Below, piece after piece: positions 3,549 to 40,783 of a stretch of 64,000 nt of DNA (positions within the stretch are counted from its first letter, which is position 1; each line of letters opens with the position of its first letter). The notes beneath the pieces were generated by a model. The model had not been told where the DNA came from and ran no database searches. It saw nothing but the letters and a program-made list of their open reading frames with translations. Source of the DNA: Fodinibius salinus (lineage in GTDB: Bacteria; Bacteroidota; Rhodothermia; Balneolales; Balneolaceae); the NCBI RefSeq assembly GCF_008124865.1, contig NZ_VNHY01000003.1:248001-312000 (forward strand). Reading direction: 5' to 3'. Made by a program: the position numbers and the translations under genes.

Positions 3549-3676
3549 AAGCTAATTTTGTTGAAATGATGACGCATGAATCTACATGATATTTGGGGTT
3601 TTTTGCAAATGGGATGAAAATAGAGCTGTAAAAGCTTATACTTAATCTATAATTTTAAATGAAAAAGTATTTGGCT

Positions 3677-4354
3677 ATGAATATTGCCGTTATCGGCACC
3701 GGTAAAACCGGCGGTAAAGTCCTCGAGGTTTTAGATGATGATCAAATTATAGGTCCATTTGATTCTTCTAATAAACCTACTGTTGAAGCATTAGCTAAGG
3801 CAGATGCGGCTATTCTTTTTGTACCGGGTGCTGCGGCGGATGAATTAATTAATACACTTATGGAAGCCGGGATTCCAGCGGCATGGGGCACAACAGGTTA
3901 TGAATGGCCGGATGATTTGGATGAACAGCTCAAGAAAAAAGATTTAACCTGGCTGCAAGCCTCAAACTTTAGTCTGGGGATGAATATTGTGCGCCGCTGT
4001 CTGGGGGTTATTGGACAGAGCTCATCGGTATTGGATAATCCCTCTTTTCATATTCACGAAATTCATCATACGGATAAGCAGGATGCGCCCAGTGGAACAG
4101 CTATTTCCTGGGAGCAATGGCTGGGGGAAGAAGCCCAAATCACCTCTGAGCGTAAAGGTGATATCAAAGGAATTCATCAGCTTAACGTGCAAACTGAGAC
4201 TGAATCTATTGAATTAAAGCACCAAGCACACGATCGCAAAATTTTTGCTCAAGGTGCTATCTGGGCAACCGAACAGCTGGTTAATCGCGATATAGCTCCC
4301 GGCTTTTACAGCCTTTCAACTATATTTGATAATATAATGCAACAACAGTTATGA
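3677..4354 (+). CDS. dapB: 4-hydroxy-tetrahydrodipicolinate reductase
   Basis: Second committed step of lysine/diaminopimelate synthesis: NAD(P)H reduction of hydroxy-tetrahydrodipicolinate, in the cytoplasm. The N-terminal Rossmann motif GTGKTGGKV and the catalytic block HHTDKQDAPSGTA (two histidines, Lys and PSGTA) are present. I prefer the ATG at 3677, because the family normally begins directly with the Rossmann strand (MNIAVIG). An in-frame ATG at 3659 would add six residues, and neither start has a clear Shine-Dalgarno sequence. The short form (about 225 aa) is usual in Bacteroidota. It overlaps dapA by 4 nt (ATGA). Confidence 0.93.
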   Translation: MNIAVIGTGKTGGKVLEVLDDDQIIGPFDSSNKPTVEALAKADAAILFVPGAAADELINTLMEAGIPAAWGTTGYEWPDDLDEQLKKKDLTWLQASNFSLGMNIVRRCLGVIGQSSSVLDNPSFHIHEIHHTDKQDAPSGTAISWEQWLGEEAQITSERKGDIKGIHQLNVQTETESIELKHQAHDRKIFAQGAIWATEQLVNRDIAPGFYSLSTIFDNIMQQQL

Positions 4355-5235
4355 GTTTAACAGATACGCAACTATATACGGCACTCGTAACCCCCATGAA
4401 AGAAAATGGGGATTTGCATCTTGATGACTTGGCATCGCTTATTCACCGGCAGGATGAGGCTGGGAATGGCGTGCTTGTGCTGGGCAGTACGGGCGAAGGA
4501 TTGGCCCAGAGTCTAGAACATAAAAAGCAGGTAGTAAAAACAGCATCGAGTTTAAATATAGATGTGCCCATTATGGTGGGTGTAGGTGGCTTTAACTTGC
4601 GTAATCAGATCGAATGGATTGAATATTGCCACCAGTTTGATGTGGATTCATTTCTACTGGTGACGCCGCTCTATGCCAAGCCGGGTGCTAAAGGACAGGT
4701 ACAGTGGTTTAAGTCACTACTTGATACTGCCGACCGGCCGTGCATGCTGTATAATGTGCCGTCGCGGACCGGCATTTCAATGAGTCCGCTGGTACTTAAA
4801 GAGTTAGCTGATCATCCTAATTTTCATGCTGTCAAAGAGGCCAGTGGCAGTATCGATGATTATCAGCAGTATCGTAAAGCAGCAAAAGATATTGCTTTTT
4901 ACAGCGGTGATGACGCACTACTTCCCTTTTTTGCTATGGCTGGTTGCCACGGACTTGTTTCGGTGGCAGCAAATGTATGGCCCCATGCCACGCATGAATA
5001 TGTGAGCCGGTCTCTTGATGGACGAGGTCCCGAATTGTTGCCGCTATGGCAGGAGTGTACGGATGCATTGTTCAAAGGACCAAACCCCGTGCCGGCGAAA
5101 GTATTGTTGCACGAAAAGGAAGAGATTGAACACTCGACCTTACACCCGCCGCTCACTGAAGATGATGTAGAAGATATAAGCCTGCTGAAAAATGCAGATA
5201 ATATGATTGAGCAGTGGTATAGTGAAATAGAGTAG
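4351..5235 (+). CDS. dapA: 4-hydroxy-tetrahydrodipicolinate synthase
   Basis: Condenses pyruvate with aspartate semialdehyde, the entry reaction of the diaminopimelate pathway. A 294-residue TIM-barrel aldolase with the usual landmarks: GSTGEG near residue 47, Tyr134 in YNVPSRTG, and Schiff-base Lys162 in AVKEASG. The length matches the family. The start overlaps the dapB stop (ATGA), implying translational coupling, and dapD follows after 150 nt. Feedback inhibition by lysine is common in this family, but I cannot judge it from the sequence. Confidence 0.95.
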   Translation: MSLTDTQLYTALVTPMKENGDLHLDDLASLIHRQDEAGNGVLVLGSTGEGLAQSLEHKKQVVKTASSLNIDVPIMVGVGGFNLRNQIEWIEYCHQFDVDSFLLVTPLYAKPGAKGQVQWFKSLLDTADRPCMLYNVPSRTGISMSPLVLKELADHPNFHAVKEASGSIDDYQQYRKAAKDIAFYSGDDALLPFFAMAGCHGLVSVAANVWPHATHEYVSRSLDGRGPELLPLWQECTDALFKGPNPVPAKVLLHEKEEIEHSTLHPPLTEDDVEDISLLKNADNMIEQWYSEIE

Positions 5236-5385
5236 ATCCAATCCTGAACTTATTCCAGGATTTGATTAGCTTACTTATTGCAGTACTCTGCTTTGAAAAG
5301 AGTTTTACAATAATTTTAGGATAGCCGTCGGGAAGTCGCCCGCCGGACTACGAAAAAGCTTCATATAACTAAAAAATAATTTACA

Positions 5386-6138
5386 ATGAGTAATAACTGG
5401 GAAGACATTTTAGATCAATTGGAAACTGGAGAAATACGTGCTGCCGAACCGAAAGGAGATGGCTGGGAGGCAAACCGAGAAGTTAAGGAGGCTATCTTGG
5501 AATCTTTCAGTGCGGGAGAAAATACTGAATATTCGGGTATCTACGAGGGGTTTGTTGACAAACATAATCTGCCGCCTCAGAAGTTTAAATCGGAACAGAA
5601 TGTACGCTTGGTTCCCGGCGGATCATCGGTGCGGCGCGGAGCCTATGTGGCTTCCGGAGTTATCCTTATGCCTCCGGCTTACGTTAATGTAGGCGGCTAT
5701 GTGGATGAGGGGGCTATGATTGACAGTCATGCTTTGGTAGGATCATGTGCGCAGGTTGGTAAAAATGTGCATCTTTCTGCCGGCGTTCAGCTGGGTGGTG
5801 TGTTAGAACCGGTGGGATTACGTCCTGTAGTAATTGAAGATGATTGCTTTATTGGCGCAGGTTCGGTAATCGTAGAGGGAATTCTCGTTAAAGAAGGCGC
5901 CGTGATTGCTCCCGGTGTTACACTTTCAAAATCAATACCTGTGTATGACTGCGTAAATGAAGAAGTGCTTGGTAAAGGGGCCGACATCCCGGAGCGAGCA
6001 GTGGTCGTACCGGGGACGCGTCCCATGAGTGGCGAGTGGGCACAGGAGCAGGGACTCAATGTTGCATGTCCGCTTATCGTAAAATATCGTGATGCCGACA
6101 GTGATGCTTCTCTTGAGCTGGAAGATGCTCTCCGGTAA
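5386..6138 (+). CDS. dapD: Tetrahydrodipicolinate N-succinyltransferase
   Basis: Succinylates tetrahydrodipicolinate, placing this organism on the succinylase branch of lysine synthesis. The 250-residue protein has a helical N-terminal domain (residues 1-75) and a left-handed beta-helix of hexapeptide repeats (about 85-210, e.g. VSAGV-type VHLSAGVQLGGVLEP and VIEDDCFIGAGSVIVEG). GYVDEGAMIDSHALVGSCAQVG is a conserved DapD block. It completes a dapB-dapA-dapD cluster. The 150-nt gap after dapA contains only a short weak hairpin. Confidence 0.93.
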   Translation: MSNNWEDILDQLETGEIRAAEPKGDGWEANREVKEAILESFSAGENTEYSGIYEGFVDKHNLPPQKFKSEQNVRLVPGGSSVRRGAYVASGVILMPPAYVNVGGYVDEGAMIDSHALVGSCAQVGKNVHLSAGVQLGGVLEPVGLRPVVIEDDCFIGAGSVIVEGILVKEGAVIAPGVTLSKSIPVYDCVNEEVLGKGADIPERAVVVPGTRPMSGEWAQEQGLNVACPLIVKYRDADSDASLELEDALR

Positions 6139-7152: not shown

Positions 7153-8865
7153 TTAACCATTTATACGACTGGTTGATTTGGTAGCAATAGCCAATCCCTT
7201 GGTAAAGGCTTGAATAACCGCTTCCAGCGTATCTGGCGAAGCTCCTTTAGAAACCCACTGTTGCCCTTCGTTGGAAAGGGTGAGGGTGACCATCACCAGC
7301 GAATCTGTATCAGGACTAAGAATATCCACTTCGTGGTTATCAACTTGAAGTGGTAAGATATTATCAGTTTCTGATCGGATGCCGGAAAGGATGGCATCAA
7401 TAGGTCCCACGCCTTTGGCTTCGGTGATAACTTCCCGATCCTGCAGGGCCAGCTTAACTTTTGCATGCACCAGGCCGTGCTTGCGCATTGTCAATTTATA
7501 GTCAAGCACTTCTGCGGGGTATTCGAGATCAATATCTTCATCAAAAACGAGGGACTGCAGTACCTCAATTTCATTGTTAGTCAGCGTCTTTCCTTTCTTA
7601 TTTATTTTTGAGACGTATTCGTTATACAACCGTTCATGGTCTTCGTCCATCTTGAGGTTGGCCATAAAAGTATCCCGCGATTTGCCCCAGGATTCCTTTT
7701 GCATCTCAATAAAACCCGAATTTACGTAATTAATAACCTTGTCGAGGTCAGGTGAAAGTACCGGAGAGCTGAGCGAATGTTTAGCGACTACCTTGGTATC
7801 CTTAAAACCGGTGCCGGTCATTACAAACAGGCAATTTTTGTCTCGAAATTTTTCATTGTGTTTTTTAAAGGCTGCCAAGGGAATGGCGCCGGCAGGTTCT
7901 ACGAATTGTCCTTCTTGCACAGCTAGTTCTTTTAGCGCATCCAGGATTTCGTCCTCCGTCACTGTCATGGCCATGCCGTCAGTATTATCGATGCCATCCA
8001 GCACCTTGTAGAAATCCACTGGGTCAGGTACGGCAACTGAGCTAGCCATAGTTTGTACCTGTTCTTTGACGATCTTTTCTTTTTTAAAGATACCCTCAAC
8101 AACGGGTGAACTTTGCTCAGGCTGGATACCTACAAATTTGGGAATCTTATCGATACTTCCAGCCGCTTTCATTTCTTTGTATCCCTTATAGATAGCGCCA
8201 AAGTTGGTTCCACAGCCGATAGGTATAAAAATATAGTCAATATCTTCTCCGCCCTGGTCCATCAATTCATAGGTAAATGATTTTTGTCCCTCTTCGCGGA
8301 ATACGAAATCACCGGCCAAATAGTAGTTGCCTGATTTTGCAAACTCACGGCACAGTTGTTCACAAGTGCTGAATGATCCTTTGATACGAATGATGTTGGC
8401 ATCGTAAATAGTTGCCTGGGCCAGTTTGGCCTCAGTCGTTTTTTCGGGTACAAAAACAAAGCAGGGTATATTAAAATAGCAGGCATAAGCTGCTACTGAG
8501 GCTGCCATATTTCCTGTAGATGCCAGGCAGATAGCATCAGCATCCAGCTCCATGGCTTTTTGCACTTCAATATAGCTGCCGCGATCTTTAAAACACCCGG
8601 TAGGGTGCTCAAATTCGAGCTTTCCGAAAATAGCTGCACCATACTTTTCAGACAGTCGGTCAAGTTCTTTTAGTGAAGTAGGATTGGTCTTTATGGGATC
8701 GGGCACTAACTGTTCCAGGGGGTACTGAATGTCCTCAGAGGATTCATCGTAATCTACCCAGAGTACACTGTCGCATTGGGTGCAATAGGTGGTAGTTTCT
8801 TCGGCTGAGTTAATGTGCCCATTAGCTACACATTTCAGCTCGTAATTTGTTGTTGCAGTTGCCAT
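7153..8865 (-). CDS. thrC: Threonine synthase with C-terminal LeuA-like allosteric domain
   Basis: A 570-residue fusion. Residues 1-36 form a zinc-ribbon-like knuckle (Cys12, His17, Cys28, Cys31). Residues 45-375 are a PLP fold-type II enzyme with Schiff-base Lys93 in CFKDRGS, STGNMAAS and the glycine loop IGCGTNFGA near 217, matching threonine synthase (phosphohomoserine to threonine). Residues 380-435 resemble the linker subdomain of 2-isopropylmalate synthase. Residues 440-565 resemble its dimerisation/regulatory domain, with the diagnostic GVGPIDA at 485-491 and KGASPDTLEA near the end. In LeuA and citramalate synthase this domain binds leucine or isoleucine; here I infer feedback control. 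Threonine dehydratase activity is a less likely alternative. Confidence 0.85.
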   Translation of the reverse strand: MATATTNYELKCVANGHINSAEETTTYCTQCDSVLWVDYDESSEDIQYPLEQLVPDPIKTNPTSLKELDRLSEKYGAAIFGKLEFEHPTGCFKDRGSYIEVQKAMELDADAICLASTGNMAASVAAYACYFNIPCFVFVPEKTTEAKLAQATIYDANIIRIKGSFSTCEQLCREFAKSGNYYLAGDFVFREEGQKSFTYELMDQGGEDIDYIFIPIGCGTNFGAIYKGYKEMKAAGSIDKIPKFVGIQPEQSSPVVEGIFKKEKIVKEQVQTMASSVAVPDPVDFYKVLDGIDNTDGMAMTVTEDEILDALKELAVQEGQFVEPAGAIPLAAFKKHNEKFRDKNCLFVMTGTGFKDTKVVAKHSLSSPVLSPDLDKVINYVNSGFIEMQKESWGKSRDTFMANLKMDEDHERLYNEYVSKINKKGKTLTNNEIEVLQSLVFDEDIDLEYPAEVLDYKLTMRKHGLVHAKVKLALQDREVITEAKGVGPIDAILSGIRSETDNILPLQVDNHEVDILSPDTDSLVMVTLTLSNEGQQWVSKGASPDTLEAVIQAFTKGLAIATKSTSRING

Positions 8866-8970: not shown

Positions 8971-9225
8971 TCAACTATTTTTGAGGGGCAGTAGAGAAAT
9001 TTCATCGAAATCCATATCGAGCTCGTCAAGTACTGGTTCGGCTACTTCTGATATTTCTTCAGGGCTAAGTTGGTCAAGTCCCGCAATTTCTATGAAAAGT
9101 GTATTTTGATGTCCAACTACGTTATACCGCGCTTTTTCAGAATTAAAACATTTGCGCAGGGTGTCGACAAGTATTTCAATATCTTGTTCGTAAGTTTCGT
9201 AATCAGCATCTTCGAGTTCAGCCAT
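8971..9225 (-). CDS. Small acidic conserved-type hypothetical protein
   Basis: An 84-residue acidic protein, predicted to form alternating helix-strand-helix elements (helix 10-27, strands NVVGHQNTLFIEIAGL at about 36-51, helix 53-68). No signal peptide, membrane segment or metal motif is visible. It lies alone between thrC and dabA on the same strand, 114 nt downstream of the dabA stop and 105 nt upstream of thrC. I do not recognise a family. The clean codon structure and compact secondary-structure pattern favour a real gene. Confidence 0.6.
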   Translation of the reverse strand: MAELEDADYETYEQDIEILVDTLRKCFNSEKARYNVVGHQNTLFIEIAGLDQLSPEEISEVAEPVLDELDMDFDEISLLPLKNS

Positions 9226-9339: not shown

Positions 9340-11700
9340 CTAGCGTATATTCTCTAAGGTTTTTGAGTGATTACTCATGGGGATGACTTTATTGCCTAAT
9401 GTTGGATCAATTATGGAAAGGTAAACCCATTCATTTTCTATTAGATTGCCTAGTGTATCCGGATGTTCGGAGATGATTGGGGTTACCCGTGACTGGGGGG
9501 CATGAATAAAGACAGAAAGACGGAGGGGAAAATGTTGTAGCTGATAATCATTTTCTCTCAGGGATTCAAGGGGAAGTCCGGATTTTAAATCGCCGCCATT
9601 ACCTTGCACGACCCCAAAATTGCCGGTAATATTTTGTGTAATCTTAGTCCCGCTTCCGAAGAATTCGTTGTCGACTGAGGCAAAATAATAATGGCTATTA
9701 ATCCATTGCGTTACAACCATTGGTCCTTGAAGAATGCCTTCCAGTTTTTGTCCATCAGGATCTTTTTGCCAGTTATAGGAATGAAGGAAGCTTCGTGCTT
9801 GGAGATCAAGGTTAGATGTTAACGCACGTGGGCCGATGATAAATGAGGCATTGCCGGCTAATCCCCATTCGGGACGCGTTTCAGCCCAATCTGAAGTTCG
9901 ACGATGAGCTTCAGCCAATGTTTGTGTAGTATTTGCATCAGCAAGATTAAATTGCTCCTTATTGGCAAGGTGTTGAGCATCATCCAGCTTGTCTTTCAAT
10001 TCCTTGATCTGCGCATACTTATCATCAGGTAGGTGCTGGTCAAAAAATTCAAACCCATTGGATGTGGTGTTGTGTTCAGCCGCTACAAAAAGGGTGTCTT
10101 TGGGAATATGGATATCATGTTGTTCGGCCAGTGTCATTCTCACTTTTTGCTCGTTGCAAATATCAGCAAGTATGCGCGCATTATGGCGCCCCTTGCTACC
10201 TGCACAGGCTCCACAATCCAAGCTTGATCCGAAGGGATTGTTTGACGTCTCGCTTCCATGCCCGGCAAAAACCACAAGTGGAGCAAAGGTGTCCCATCCC
10301 ATCAAGTCAAATGCCGCACTAGCAATCTGTGCTTTCTGATCGATTGATAAATGATCGGGATGACCAGAATCAGATGTAGCCTTGGTTGATAATTTTGCTT
10401 TACTGAACCCTTCCGGAGAGCCTTTGCGACGCTTTGCCTTTTCTTTAAGGCGATACACTGAGGCGGGAAATAATGTTCGCAAGATCATGCTTAATCCATA
10501 GAAAAATCCGGCTGACTCTACATATCCGAATGATGCCGGGATGTTATTTTTTAGCGTGAAGCGAAACTCATTAAAGGCCTTGTGCAAGGTGTTGTAGAAA
10601 TCAAAATTATCAGCTGCTGCTTGTTGGTCAGCACGTATTTCTTCTCGTGCCTCAAATTTGGCATCTACGATAGGTGGACACGATTTATTACTAATATTTT
10701 TTTCGGGATGCTGATATTCCATTGCCACTCCGAAAAATCCCGCATACCCAAACGTTTCGTAGTCACCCACTTGTTCAATTGTCCTGCGTATCCGTTCAGA
10801 TCGAGTATCGATACAGAACACAAGTTGTGCTTCCGGTCTTTTTCCGTCACGATCATTTTCGGGGATCGACTGGGCGGTCAGCTGTTTGGTAAGTTTTTGC
10901 TGATAGGTCAGCTCCATGGCTCGAAGCCATGCCGACTTGATGTTATCTCCTTTGTGAGAGGTGTTGGTTGAGGGAGACTGATGTTCGCGAAAATCTTTTC
11001 CAAACTCTGTATAAATTGTTAGTCGCACTGCCAGGTAGTCGATCAGGGTAATAGGGAAAGCCAGCTGCCAGTCATTGCCACTTTCCATGCGATATTTGAT
11101 GTATCCGGTCCAACCGGGTAGTGTTAGCAAGTGGTGTTTCAATATGGTTTCCAGCTCATTCTTTTCAACGTCTTCCAGTAAATGTTGCAGAGCGTCAAGT
11201 GGATCATCGGGCAAGGTATTAATCAGATCACGTCTGGGTAGGGTGTGATCATGCTGGGCGTTCTTCTTCCAGGAATTATAGAATCCTTCATCACGATAAG
11301 GCATGGGCCATTCTGTTGATCCCTGATCCAGAAAAACACTCAGCCATTTTATCAGATTGCGATTAACATCATCCAATTTTGTCTGGGCGTTCTCAGGGTT
11401 TTCAAATGTGTGCATTTGTTGCAGCGATTTATCAACCGAAAGCGGTATACCTTTTTCTTGTAGCTGTTTTTCAAGGATGTCCTGATCGATATCACCCTGG
11501 GTGAAGGCTTGTTCAAATGCATCTGCTGAAGGGTACCCATTGATGTTTAAGTACTTGCGGGTGTCTTCGATAGCTTGCTCAAAAGGCTGGTCTTCCAGGC
11601 CAGATAATGGATTTGAAGTGACAAAAGAATACAGGGGCCAATTTTTGATTAAATTATCAGATATTGATCGAACTGTATCTACGATAGCGTCTTTTTTCAT
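9340..11700 (-). CDS. dabA: DabA, inorganic carbon transporter subunit (DUF2309)
   Basis: The 786-residue UPF0753/DUF2309 protein is the beta-carbonic-anhydrase-like cytoplasmic subunit of the DAB CO2/bicarbonate accumulation pump. The four zinc/active-site residues are readable: Cys296 and Asp298 in FCIDTRSE, His481 in FAGHGSE, and Cys496 in DCGACAG. The His-Cys spacing of 15 matches the spacing I recall for characterised DabA. DabA is thought to hydrate CO2 vectorially, energised by cation flow through DabB. It is encoded directly downstream of dabB (19-nt gap). Length is normal for the family. Confidence 0.92.
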   Translation of the reverse strand: MKKDAIVDTVRSISDNLIKNWPLYSFVTSNPLSGLEDQPFEQAIEDTRKYLNINGYPSADAFEQAFTQGDIDQDILEKQLQEKGIPLSVDKSLQQMHTFENPENAQTKLDDVNRNLIKWLSVFLDQGSTEWPMPYRDEGFYNSWKKNAQHDHTLPRRDLINTLPDDPLDALQHLLEDVEKNELETILKHHLLTLPGWTGYIKYRMESGNDWQLAFPITLIDYLAVRLTIYTEFGKDFREHQSPSTNTSHKGDNIKSAWLRAMELTYQQKLTKQLTAQSIPENDRDGKRPEAQLVFCIDTRSERIRRTIEQVGDYETFGYAGFFGVAMEYQHPEKNISNKSCPPIVDAKFEAREEIRADQQAAADNFDFYNTLHKAFNEFRFTLKNNIPASFGYVESAGFFYGLSMILRTLFPASVYRLKEKAKRRKGSPEGFSKAKLSTKATSDSGHPDHLSIDQKAQIASAAFDLMGWDTFAPLVVFAGHGSETSNNPFGSSLDCGACAGSKGRHNARILADICNEQKVRMTLAEQHDIHIPKDTLFVAAEHNTTSNGFEFFDQHLPDDKYAQIKELKDKLDDAQHLANKEQFNLADANTTQTLAEAHRRTSDWAETRPEWGLAGNASFIIGPRALTSNLDLQARSFLHSYNWQKDPDGQKLEGILQGPMVVTQWINSHYYFASVDNEFFGSGTKITQNITGNFGVVQGNGGDLKSGLPLESLRENDYQLQHFPLRLSVFIHAPQSRVTPIISEHPDTLGNLIENEWVYLSIIDPTLGNKVIPMSNHSKTLENIR

Positions 11701-11719
11701 GGAAATCAGTTCAGGTTAT

Positions 11720-13159
11720 TTAATGAAGAATCGTATTAGATTTAGGTTGAGACACATTTAACATATATACATACAATCGGCTGGACTTTTTGTAGAGTTT
11801 GAGTTCAATCACTATGAATGAAATAAGATATAACACTCCTATAAATATTTGTGCCCAGCTGAGAGGAGTAGCAACTTGAATCATTGGGATTGTAGTAAGT
11901 AGAGTATCTATCAGTTCAAACACGACAGCATAGACTAGCAATGCCGGAATGATAATTGCGGGAAGTGTAACGAGTCGCGTTGTTCGAGATAGGCTGCTAT
12001 GTTTGAGGATGTCACGGCTTCCATGTATCACGGTTAGGACGATAACTAGGTTTAGAAACAAGCCACTGTCGAGATGTAATCCTTTACCGGTGGTAAAGGC
12101 AAATATGAGCCCGCCTACAGCTCCGCTGAGCAGCATGACCGGGAGGTGCCATTTATTCCAGCTTTCCTTTTCATTACTGATTACCGGTTTTTGTTCTATG
12201 GCGTCTCCTGATGACAGAAAAAGGTAGGCTTTATAGAATCCATGTAGGATTAAGTGCGTAATAGCTGCAGCAAAGAATCCCAGGCCACATTCCAACAACA
12301 TGAAGCCCATTTGAGCAGTGGTAGAGCAAGCCAGCTTTTGTTTTACATTGGGTTGCATAAATTTGCTAAATTTGCCGATAAGCGCCCCGATACCGCCGGC
12401 AATGACAAGTATCCACAGCAGATGACTGCCAAATAGAATGGGGGCGACTCTCGCAAGTAGCACTGCTCCTGCGTTCACAAATCCCGCGTGCATCAGAGCG
12501 GAAGCCGGAGTTGGGGCTGTCATTGAAGACATCAGCCAGCGATGAAAAGGGAAAAGGGCCGATTGTATAATGGCAGCAATGATTAATAATATTCCTCCTA
12601 GTTTAATTATTGATGGATCAGCGGAAGCACTGGCTTCAACGATGTTGGTAATATGCCAAAATCCCGTTGTGTATCCCAGCCAAATAAAACCGGCTGACAG
12701 GAAAAACGCGCTCATCAAGAAGTAATTTCGGGCAGTTCGCTTCGAGCCAACGCTTTCTTCGGTATGCGTGTATTCCCCAATGAGTTTCGCCATCAAAAGA
12801 CCCATGCAAAGCCAGGCTGTAATAAAGAGGGCAATGTGATTCGAGATAACCATCAGGATAACTGCAAAGGAAAACAGTAGCCCATTCAACATAAATTTGG
12901 GTAGATAAGCATATCCTGCTAAATATCTGCCGGAATAGCTTAGCACAATACTGCTGAATAGGGTAACCGCTGTGCTCATGACCAGACTTAACTGATCAAC
13001 CATAATTAAACTATTAGCAGTCCAATGTATGGGATGAAAATATGAGATTCCAAGAAGTATAAAGAACAAGGTGAATAAGAACCACGACAGCCGAACAATG
13101 GTTTTTGTGAAGGTGCGATTTTTAGTTCTGAGACTTTCAGATGTTGATTTAGAGATCAT
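11720..13159 (-). CDS. dabB: DabB, NuoL/MrpA-like membrane subunit of DAB carbon pump
   Basis: A 479-residue membrane protein with about 13 helices, belonging to the proton-conducting NADH-quinone oxidoreductase subunit 5/antiporter family. The central block SSMTAPTPASALMHAGFVNAGAVL is its proton_antipo_M signature. Standing alone next to dabA, without other nuo or mrp genes, identifies it as DabB, the cation-translocating partner of DabA. A 7-bp inverted repeat with a 12-bp spacer (13211-13236) lies about 50 nt upstream and may be the LysR target. Confidence 0.9.
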   Translation of the reverse strand: MISKSTSESLRTKNRTFTKTIVRLSWFLFTLFFILLGISYFHPIHWTANSLIMVDQLSLVMSTAVTLFSSIVLSYSGRYLAGYAYLPKFMLNGLLFSFAVILMVISNHIALFITAWLCMGLLMAKLIGEYTHTEESVGSKRTARNYFLMSAFFLSAGFIWLGYTTGFWHITNIVEASASADPSIIKLGGILLIIAAIIQSALFPFHRWLMSSMTAPTPASALMHAGFVNAGAVLLARVAPILFGSHLLWILVIAGGIGALIGKFSKFMQPNVKQKLACSTTAQMGFMLLECGLGFFAAAITHLILHGFYKAYLFLSSGDAIEQKPVISNEKESWNKWHLPVMLLSGAVGGLIFAFTTGKGLHLDSGLFLNLVIVLTVIHGSRDILKHSSLSRTTRLVTLPAIIIPALLVYAVVFELIDTLLTTIPMIQVATPLSWAQIFIGVLYLISFIVIELKLYKKSSRLYVYMLNVSQPKSNTILH

Positions 13160-14699: not shown

Positions 14700-15602
14700 T
14701 TAAGAAAGTGTTTCCAAAATAAATTCATACTGCTCTATCAGCTGCCGACGGATGGGCTGCGAACTCTGAAAAATGGCCTTCTGTTTCCTCATGTATTTTT
14801 GGCGGCCCTCGTCGGTTTCAATTTTGATGGGTTCCAGCCCGCGTTCACGAAGATCATAGGGACTGGCTTTCATATCCATGACGCGGGTTTCAACGGCCAG
14901 CTTGAACGCCCGGCGGATCGTGTTGCTGGAAATCCAGGGATACATTTTGAATGCCCATTTGTACAGATCCATGTTCGTGTGAAGACAGCCGGGCTGTTCC
15001 ATCTCGGCAAATTTATCACGGCTGAGCTCGTGTTTGTTTTGTGGCTTGGCTTCGTCGGTAAAAAAGCGGAAGGCGTCGAAGTGTGTACAGACGAGGGGAC
15101 GCGATTCTACAAATTCTGCCAGCTCTTCTTTATCCATTCGCAGGGAGAGGTAGTCGTGGCGTACGCGGTCGGCTTTGTAAACCATAGCCCACTCGTGCAT
15201 TCCAAAACAGCCAAATGAAGGCTCACGCTCAGCGGACTGCTCTAATACATTGATAATCCATTTTAAGGCTGAAATACGATCACGATCAAAATGGTCGATG
15301 TCCAAAAAGCTGTTGCCATCGATTGTTCCCATTTCATTAAAACGCCAATCCTCCAAAGATCCGTCTATTAGCAGAACGCCCAGACCCGGCGACCAGCTTT
15401 TAAGATAAGAAGGCCGGAAAGCATAATATTCAAAAAGAAAATCCATCACCGGGTCTTTTTGCTGCTGCGACCGCCGCTGTAAATAATCATCAATGAGATT
15501 ACCAATTTGCCGTTGGTGTTGGGCCTTTTGCTGTTGCCAGTCTTCTGGCTCTACTTGGTTGGTAATATAGGGAACGTGCTGAGCTGTTTGCGTTGTAACC
15601 AT
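14700..15602 (-). CDS. Uncharacterised protein of the family often labelled '3-methyladenine DNA glycosylase'
   Basis: A 300-residue soluble protein. DFLFEYYAFRPSYLKSWSPG, FGCFGMHEWAMVY, HFDAFRFFT, EQPGCLHTNMDLYKWA and MKASPYDL are block motifs of a family widespread in Actinobacteria and some Bacteroidota. That family is commonly annotated as 3-methyladenine DNA glycosylase, although it does not resemble the AlkA, Tag or AAG folds. The many conserved His, Cys, Asp and aromatic residues suggest an enzyme. It is convergent with the LysR gene (23-nt gap) and is not part of the DAB operon. Confidence 0.65.
   Translation of the reverse strand: MVTTQTAQHVPYITNQVEPEDWQQQKAQHQRQIGNLIDDYLQRRSQQQKDPVMDFLFEYYAFRPSYLKSWSPGLGVLLIDGSLEDWRFNEMGTIDGNSFLDIDHFDRDRISALKWIINVLEQSAEREPSFGCFGMHEWAMVYKADRVRHDYLSLRMDKEELAEFVESRPLVCTHFDAFRFFTDEAKPQNKHELSRDKFAEMEQPGCLHTNMDLYKWAFKMYPWISSNTIRRAFKLAVETRVMDMKASPYDLRERGLEPIKIETDEGRQKYMRKQKAIFQSSQPIRRQLIEQYEFILETLS

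Positions 15603-40710: not shown

Positions 40711-40783
<73 letters not shown>

Follow-up and report, generated by a model that had tools for sequence, protein, structure and literature searches.

The fused gene and its surroundings

Within the window (the whole stretch of DNA analysed, 64,000 nucleotides of the Fodinibius salinus genome), the minus strand carries a gene in which a PLP-dependent enzyme is fused to a LeuA-type allosteric domain (Table 1). The initial annotation had placed this gene at the same coordinates, without naming the strand, and had described a threonine synthase-like PLP domain followed by the regulatory domain of 2-isopropylmalate and citramalate synthases. Pfam analysis bears out both assignments, with a LeuA_dimer score of 60.2 bits (cut-off 24.9), and Lys93 within the PTGCFKDRG motif and GVGPIDA at residues 485-491 are located as had been described. 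Both domains are also present in five of five further members scanned, and in one more scanned separately, and the fusion of PALP and LeuA_dimer can be regarded as confirmed at the level of sequence. Up to an E-value of 1, Pfam matches nothing else in the window protein, including the HMGL-like catalytic domain of 2-isopropylmalate/citramalate synthase and the Thr_dehydrat_C (PF00585) and ACT regulatory domains, while within the whole genome PF08502 matches this protein only. Comparison against NCBIfam gave a score of 177.6 bits for TIGR00260 (thrC), just above the cut-off of 167.1, which is also passed by non-fused relatives of other groups (L108, L109 and L115), and the C-terminus matches 2-isopropylmalate synthase profiles. 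The zinc knuckle that had been proposed is partly upheld: Cys12, Cys28 and Cys31 are invariant in the thirty full-length rows, but the motif is incomplete, with position 15 being Asn in the window protein and Cys in only 17/30 full-length fused rows.

The AlphaFold2 model of the protein (mean pLDDT 84) predicts a C-terminal unit of beta-beta-beta-alpha-beta-beta-beta-alpha order. A profile of residues 392-570, built from nineteen members of which two are partial, matched the Leptospira regulatory domain 3f6g in the PDB (E 4e-4), its only other match being a phycobiliprotein (E 0.035), while the C-terminal 135 residues, searched against the PDB as a single sequence, matched nothing up to E 1. 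The evidence for the LeuA fold comes from Pfam, the profile match and the predicted secondary structure, since the structural matches listed for the whole model are PALP proteins.

Table 1. Coordinates of the fused gene, its domains and residues, and nearby genes within the window
Feature	Position	Strand	Remarks
dapB-dapA-dapD	3659..6138	+	convergent with the fused gene
Fused PLP-enzyme/LeuA-domain gene	7153..8865	-	570 aa; 55/128 genomes of the order
LeuA_dimer allosteric domain, residues 436-558	7192..7560	-	Pfam PF08502, E 2.6e-16; profile match to 3f6g
His511, at the LeuA/CimA pocket Tyr	7333..7335	-	His in 32/32 fused rows
PALP catalytic domain, residues 61-351	7813..8685	-	Pfam PF00291, E 3e-64; best structural matches threonine synthases
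AGDFVFR, residues 184-190, remodelled substrate-phosphate segment	8296..8316	-	Arg190 kept, Asp186 new; ThrC roles presumed
Lys93, predicted PLP lysine in PTGCFKDRG	8587..8589	-	invariant 30/30; aligned with Thermus ThrC Lys61
N-terminal Cys motif, residues 12-31, a zinc ribbon lacking one Cys	8773..8832	-	alignment
Conserved upstream gene, encoding a small acidic protein	8971..9225	-	84 aa; model pLDDT 82

In 44/47 carrier loci, or 44/45 of those with enough flank, the fused gene is preceded on its strand by a gene for a homologue of the 84-aa protein. The three misses are G001, G032 and G107; as the loci of the former two end within about 175 bases, G107 represents the one real absence. The gap between the two genes is under about 220 bases in 42/44 loci, with larger gaps in G021 (366 bases) and G005 (573 bases, with an intervening 160-aa ORF). 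The small protein has no Pfam match up to E 0.1, and its model yielded no confident structural match (best E 6e-3). Besides this gene, no gene is common to all of the loci read by eye. In the window, the gene between dapD and the fused gene is presumably MsrA-like. No riboswitch was found in the window by Rfam at the gathering threshold, the only match being a tRNA (40711-40783, plus strand), and promoter and terminator scans did not rise above shuffled sequences. Elsewhere on the minus strand, a DAB-type inorganic carbon transporter pair is encoded at 9340-13159, comprising DabA (PF10070, E 1.4e-236) and an adjacent proton-antiporter-like protein (PF00361), as well as a 300-aa protein at 14700-15602 with no Pfam match over the cut-off; by eye, f3 and several genera have proteins similar to the latter encoded close to the fused gene.

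Distribution and conservation

Among 244 genomes of the class, the fusion occurs in 55/128 genomes of one order, inferred to be the Balneolales, and in 0/116 of the others, with the split read from the genome ordering and up to five best candidates scored per genome. The protein is of full length in fifty carriers and partial in five (G036, G077, G105, G106 and G122), and its recurrence in these genomes indicates that the architecture is more than chance. A survey of the PF00291 and PF08502 combination, as had been proposed, was run within one phylum (394 genomes; up to three best candidates scored per genome) and likewise confined the fusion to one order: it was found in thirty-five genomes, all within that order, while the other thirty-two matching genomes hold the PALP part alone. 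The named close relatives, with 68-82 % identity, are from two Fodinibius species, a Gracilimonas MAG and a Balneola MAG (four loci confirmed), Fodinibius being a genus of the Balneolales.

Two pairs of carriers without thrB were compared for selection. Between G018 and G019, dN/dS is 0.011 for the whole gene, 0.015 for PALP and 0.010 for the LeuA domain, at a dS of about 1.35, which is near saturation, while the values for G089 and G090, at low divergence, are 0.061 overall, 0.084 for PALP and 0.019 for LeuA. In comparisons of the window gene with G012 and G018, the synonymous sites are saturated over the whole gene, with dN/dS of the LeuA part being 0.038 and 0.057, respectively. These ratios indicate that the fused gene is under strong purifying selection in both domains and is still functional where thrB is missing.

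The catalytic domain and its non-fused relatives

Thirty full-length alignment rows were compared with the Thermus ThrC, in which Thr88, Asn154, Ser155, Arg160 and Asn188 are taken by us to be the substrate-phosphate residues; a literature search on the phosphate role of these residues gave nothing useful. In the HMMER alignment, Lys93 aligns with Lys61 and Arg190 with Arg160. Of the five positions tested, only this Arg is kept, with Thr88, Asn154, Ser155 and Asn188 replaced by Met120, Gly185, Asp186 and Cys/Ala218, respectively, in 30/30 rows. Lys93, Asp186 and Arg190 are invariant, as is most of the glycine loop, which reads G[CA]GTN in 30/30 fused rows versus GGGG in L002-L004. As Arg190 is invariant, the substrate could be phosphorylated.

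Among the structural matches listed for the model, threonine synthases are nearest (Z 30-39), while threonine deaminases and serine racemases occur at Z 30-32 and CapA2 of Alistipes at Z 33.9. Cysteate synthase was considered on the basis of the CapA2 match and rejected, with nothing else in its support. The ten fused rows group together (100/100) in a tree of thirty-three PALP proteins, in a clade which, with long branches present, is joined firmly to no other group, including the RidA-adjacent relatives. Three further PALP proteins, all of serine/threonine-dehydratase type, are encoded in the window genome.

Ten loci were fetched from the thirty-two non-fused genomes. By eye, nine of these lie in clusters suggestive of the catabolism of purines or 2,3-diaminopropionate, in which genes for xanthine-dehydrogenase-like proteins, amidohydrolases, carbamoyltransferases or M20 peptidases occur and the YgeW score is under its cut-off, while the tenth (L135) encodes a Thermus-type ThrC-like protein beside an aspartokinase-like gene (by eye). 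The ThrC-like proteins of purine-type clusters in other classes of the phylum (L131-L134 and L136-L140) may be mislabelled threonine synthases. Of four relatives in genus g34, three are adjoined by a RidA-type gene (L108, L128 and L129, that of L129 being checked by Pfam), with none at L130. The motif STGNM is common to the fused proteins and these RidA-adjacent relatives.

The pocket of the regulatory domain

A tree of the domain, omitting one partial fused row and the PDB row, separates the fused, LeuA and CimA rows (97/98, 98/94 and 91/95, respectively). For the ligand pocket, nine positions of the Leptospira domain 3f6g were used which, with isoleucine as the ligand, we assume to line it; they agree in letter and spacing with the printed 3f6g chain. 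Asp431, Thr464 and Val468 of this pocket are kept in most fused members, with G107 deviating at positions 431 and 464. At positions 458 (Ile/Val), 464 (Thr) and 468 (Val), the fused domains are like those of CimA and Leptospira and unlike those of LeuA. Position 454 is His in 32/32 fused rows (His511 in the window protein), whereas Tyr occurs in 8/8 LeuA rows, 8/8 CimA rows and the 3f6g row. In the LeuA domain, leucine is described as bound in a hydrophobic pocket at the dimer interface that is closed by a loop (PMC11057210). The presence of His in place of Tyr may indicate a ligand other than leucine, isoleucine or valine.

Threonine and branched-chain amino acid pathways of the carriers

Homoserine kinase (TIGR00191) is missing or far under its cut-off in 14/55 carriers, among them the genome of the window (G000, G008, G018, G019, G025, G026, G027, G030, G034, G037, G074, G076, G089 and G090; best E 9e-14). 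Ten of these fourteen are at least 90 % complete, and the absences here and below are those of profile searches in draft assemblies, with a completeness of only 74-90 % in some; G077, with a partial match under the cut-off (7.0e-42), was counted as kinase-positive. Neither of the other homoserine kinase families exceeds its cut-off in nineteen genomes searched, TIGR00938 matching none and TIGR02535 giving weak partial matches in 18/19 (best E 1.2e-11). Canonical ThrC (Thr_synth_N), tested in twenty-three genomes of which twenty are carriers, is found in 8/8 carriers with the kinase, 0/12 carriers without it and 0/3 non-carriers. Homoserine dehydrogenase is present in 21/23 genomes, being missing from G089 and G090; its neighbours in the window genome, metX and a gene for O-acetylhomoserine sulfhydrylase, suggest a link to methionine. 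By eye, thrA-thrB-thrC sits between dapD and the fused gene in the congeneric G009 and G012 (the genes of the latter being checked by NCBIfam, and its ThrC by Pfam) and lies elsewhere, apart from the fused gene, in G003 and G023. Beside a dehydratase-like gene, the window genome also encodes a probable low-specificity threonine aldolase (L004:2426-3445; by eye), a possible other source of threonine.

IlvD is missing from 21/55 carriers and present in thirty-four. Of the latter, fifteen encode a second LeuA/CimA-type protein and seventeen others an IlvA with PF00585 (Thr_dehydrat_C), with neither found only in G006 and G025. Since 32/34 IlvD carriers have another likely route, the fused protein is generally not needed for isoleucine. 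Across all carriers a second LeuA/CimA-type protein occurs in only 16/55, and a link of the fusion to leucine synthesis was rejected on this count. Of four such proteins checked by NCBIfam, that of G009 is a citramalate synthase and that of G107 a 2-isopropylmalate synthase, while those of the non-carriers G109 and G144 are both citramalate synthases. In the genus of the window, 0/12 genomes encode a PF00585 IlvA and 8/12 encode IlvD. More widely, many genomes of g2, g3, g5, g7 and g10 hold a PF00585 IlvA, and several genomes of the order hold a citramalate synthase, usually beside an ilvC-like gene (L149 and L153 by NCBIfam; L150, L151, L156 and L159 by eye).

In the window genome, no homoserine kinase of the three families scores over its cut-off, and neither canonical ThrC nor IlvD was found; judged from these results, the genome produces no isoleucine and, by that route, no threonine.

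Functional interpretation

The initial annotation had read the protein as a threonine synthase at the aspartate-family branch point with isoleucine feedback. The part of this reading in which a ThrC-like PLP domain carries a LeuA-type allosteric domain stands, but the proposed role is not supported, given the lack of kinase, canonical ThrC and IlvD in the window genome and the separate thrABC genes of G003, G009, G012 and G023. As the fused gene is kept by bacteria apparently without the threonine pathway, it probably performs a different job. The explanation we tentatively prefer is that of a ThrC-derived PLP lyase, probably a threonine/serine-type ammonia-lyase, which would be gated by a branched-chain-type amino acid through its LeuA/CimA-type sensor. 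The fold-type-II catalytic domain, being other than the threonine synthase of its pathway, would catalyse beta-elimination on a small amino acid, releasing ammonia and a 2-oxo acid. Threonine and serine are the likeliest substrates, with an O-phospho or amino-substituted amino acid as a possible alternative. The C-terminal domain would dimerise and gate catalysis upon binding its ligand, which in carriers unable to make branched-chain amino acids would be an imported amino acid, and the small protein from the upstream gene probably acts with the enzyme. In favour of deamination, a ThrC-type enzyme of Microcystis also deaminates threonine (see below), STGNM is shared with the RidA-adjacent relatives, and the relatives in purine-type clusters occupy, by eye, the place expected of a 2,3-diaminopropionate ammonia-lyase. 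Against it, a further deaminase is not obviously needed in a genome with three other dehydratase-kind PALP proteins, and the TIGR00260 score, the threonine synthases as best structural matches, the invariant Arg190 and the lack of a firm tree link to the RidA-adjacent or any other group also count against this lyase reading.

The pathway threonine synthase itself was rejected on the patterns of missing kinase, canonical ThrC and homoserine dehydrogenase together with the changed phosphate site. It is unlikely that the protein is nevertheless a genuine threonine synthase acting on O-phosphohomoserine under isoleucine or threonine end-product control, with substrate uptake or another kinase where thrB is absent. 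The TIGR00260 score, the nearest of the structural matches listed, the kept Arg190 and the homoserine dehydrogenase retained beside metX in the window genome would all fit such an enzyme, but canonical ThrC occurs in every thrB-positive carrier tested and adjoins the fused gene in G009 and G012, none of the three kinase families exceeds its cut-off in the fourteen thrB-less carriers (TIGR02535 matching weakly in 18/19 genomes), G089 and G090 lack homoserine dehydrogenase, and four of the presumed phosphate-site positions are changed throughout. More probable, though still doubtful, is that the order has an undescribed pathway in which the protein acts on some other amino acid with a beta-substituent (O-phosphoserine, O-phosphothreonine, 2,3-diaminopropionate or a replacement of cysteate type). 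The invariant Arg190 and Asp186, the cousins in purine-type clusters (by eye) and the presence of CapA2 among the structural matches listed are consistent with this, whereas the lack of any constant neighbour but the small gene, in loci read by eye, leaves no pathway partner that points to a substrate.

An isoleucine-pathway threonine deaminase, in which the LeuA/CimA-type domain replaces the usual IlvA regulatory domain, would suit the fold and chemistry as well as the genus of the window, where twelve genomes lack a PF00585 IlvA and eight of these have IlvD. The 21/55 carriers without IlvD and the other likely route in 32/34 of the remainder nevertheless make it improbable, and it is not favoured. 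Equally improbable is a catalytically weak PLP domain in a protein that mainly senses an amino acid and regulates another protein through the small partner: the upstream gene is near-constant where flank suffices and, between G018 and G019, the sensor domain is constrained like the catalytic domain, but neither the PLP lysine nor most of the glycine loop varies, and the G107 carrier locus lacks the small gene.

Extending the preferred lyase reading, and more guardedly still, the fused proteins may constitute a family, so far specific to the order, of amino acid-gated PLP lyases with a new substrate, a sensor retuned by Tyr-to-His exchange and a dedicated partner of ~84 aa, which would serve as a nutrient-responsive switch after the loss of threonine and branched-chain synthesis. 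If true, this would represent a new control of a PLP enzyme, in which an unrelated catalytic fold has acquired the sensor used in leucine and isoleucine synthesis. Carriers that seem to have lost both end-product pathways still retain the fused gene, and this natural loss series can thus test what the allosteric domain senses without its usual pathway. Furthermore, the TIGR00260 label 'threonine synthase' can mislead, as by label alone a genome would pass for a threonine maker where kinase and canonical synthase were not found.

Comparison with known systems

The fused protein is like the Thermus/Bacillus-type threonine synthases (1uim, 6cgq, 2d1f and 2zsj) in its PALP fold over residues 1-358 (30-34 % identity; Z 34-37), its PLP lysine, the TGxGLKD motif of most members and the phosphate-segment Arg. 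It differs in the segment itself, NSVNPxR in threonine synthases (NSVNPHR in Thermus) versus AGDYVxR in the fused proteins (AGDFVFR here), and in having STGNM for STGNT and G[CA]GTN for GNAGN, as well as in its N-terminal Cys motif, its LeuA domain and its retention without a recognisable homoserine kinase. With the LeuA/CimA regulatory domain (PF08502; 3f6g) it shares the Pfam match over the cut-off, the GxGPxDA loop, the predicted fold and, in most members, pocket positions 431, 464 and 468, but it carries His for the pocket Tyr, lacks the HMGL-like catalytic domain and forms a tree group of its own (97/98). Threonine deaminase IlvA with Thr_dehydrat_C is similar in its PLP fold family and C-terminal amino acid sensor; the sensor of the fused protein is however of another family, its glycine loop is G[CA]GTN rather than GGGG, and PF00585 was found in neither the protein nor the genome. 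Non-fused ThrC-like enzymes (L131-L134 and L136-L140 from other classes of the phylum; L108 and L128-L130 from genus g34 within the order) share about 31-37 % identity over PALP, but have no LeuA domain and fall in separate tree groups.

A precedent for ThrC-type enzymes acting on threonine is the Microcystis ThrC, which is reported also to deaminate threonine; unlike what is proposed here, it is reported to have threonine synthase activity as well, and the abstract mentions no LeuA-type domain (PMC12172450). C-terminal regulatory domains of fold-type-II enzymes have been described in a paper in which neither LeuA nor isopropylmalate is mentioned (PMC9081730). The initial annotation did not recall the architecture as characterised, and the titles and abstract openings listed from the open-licence literature likewise gave no description of a PALP+LeuA_dimer protein. 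Both parts are known, while their combination and the use made of it appear to be new.
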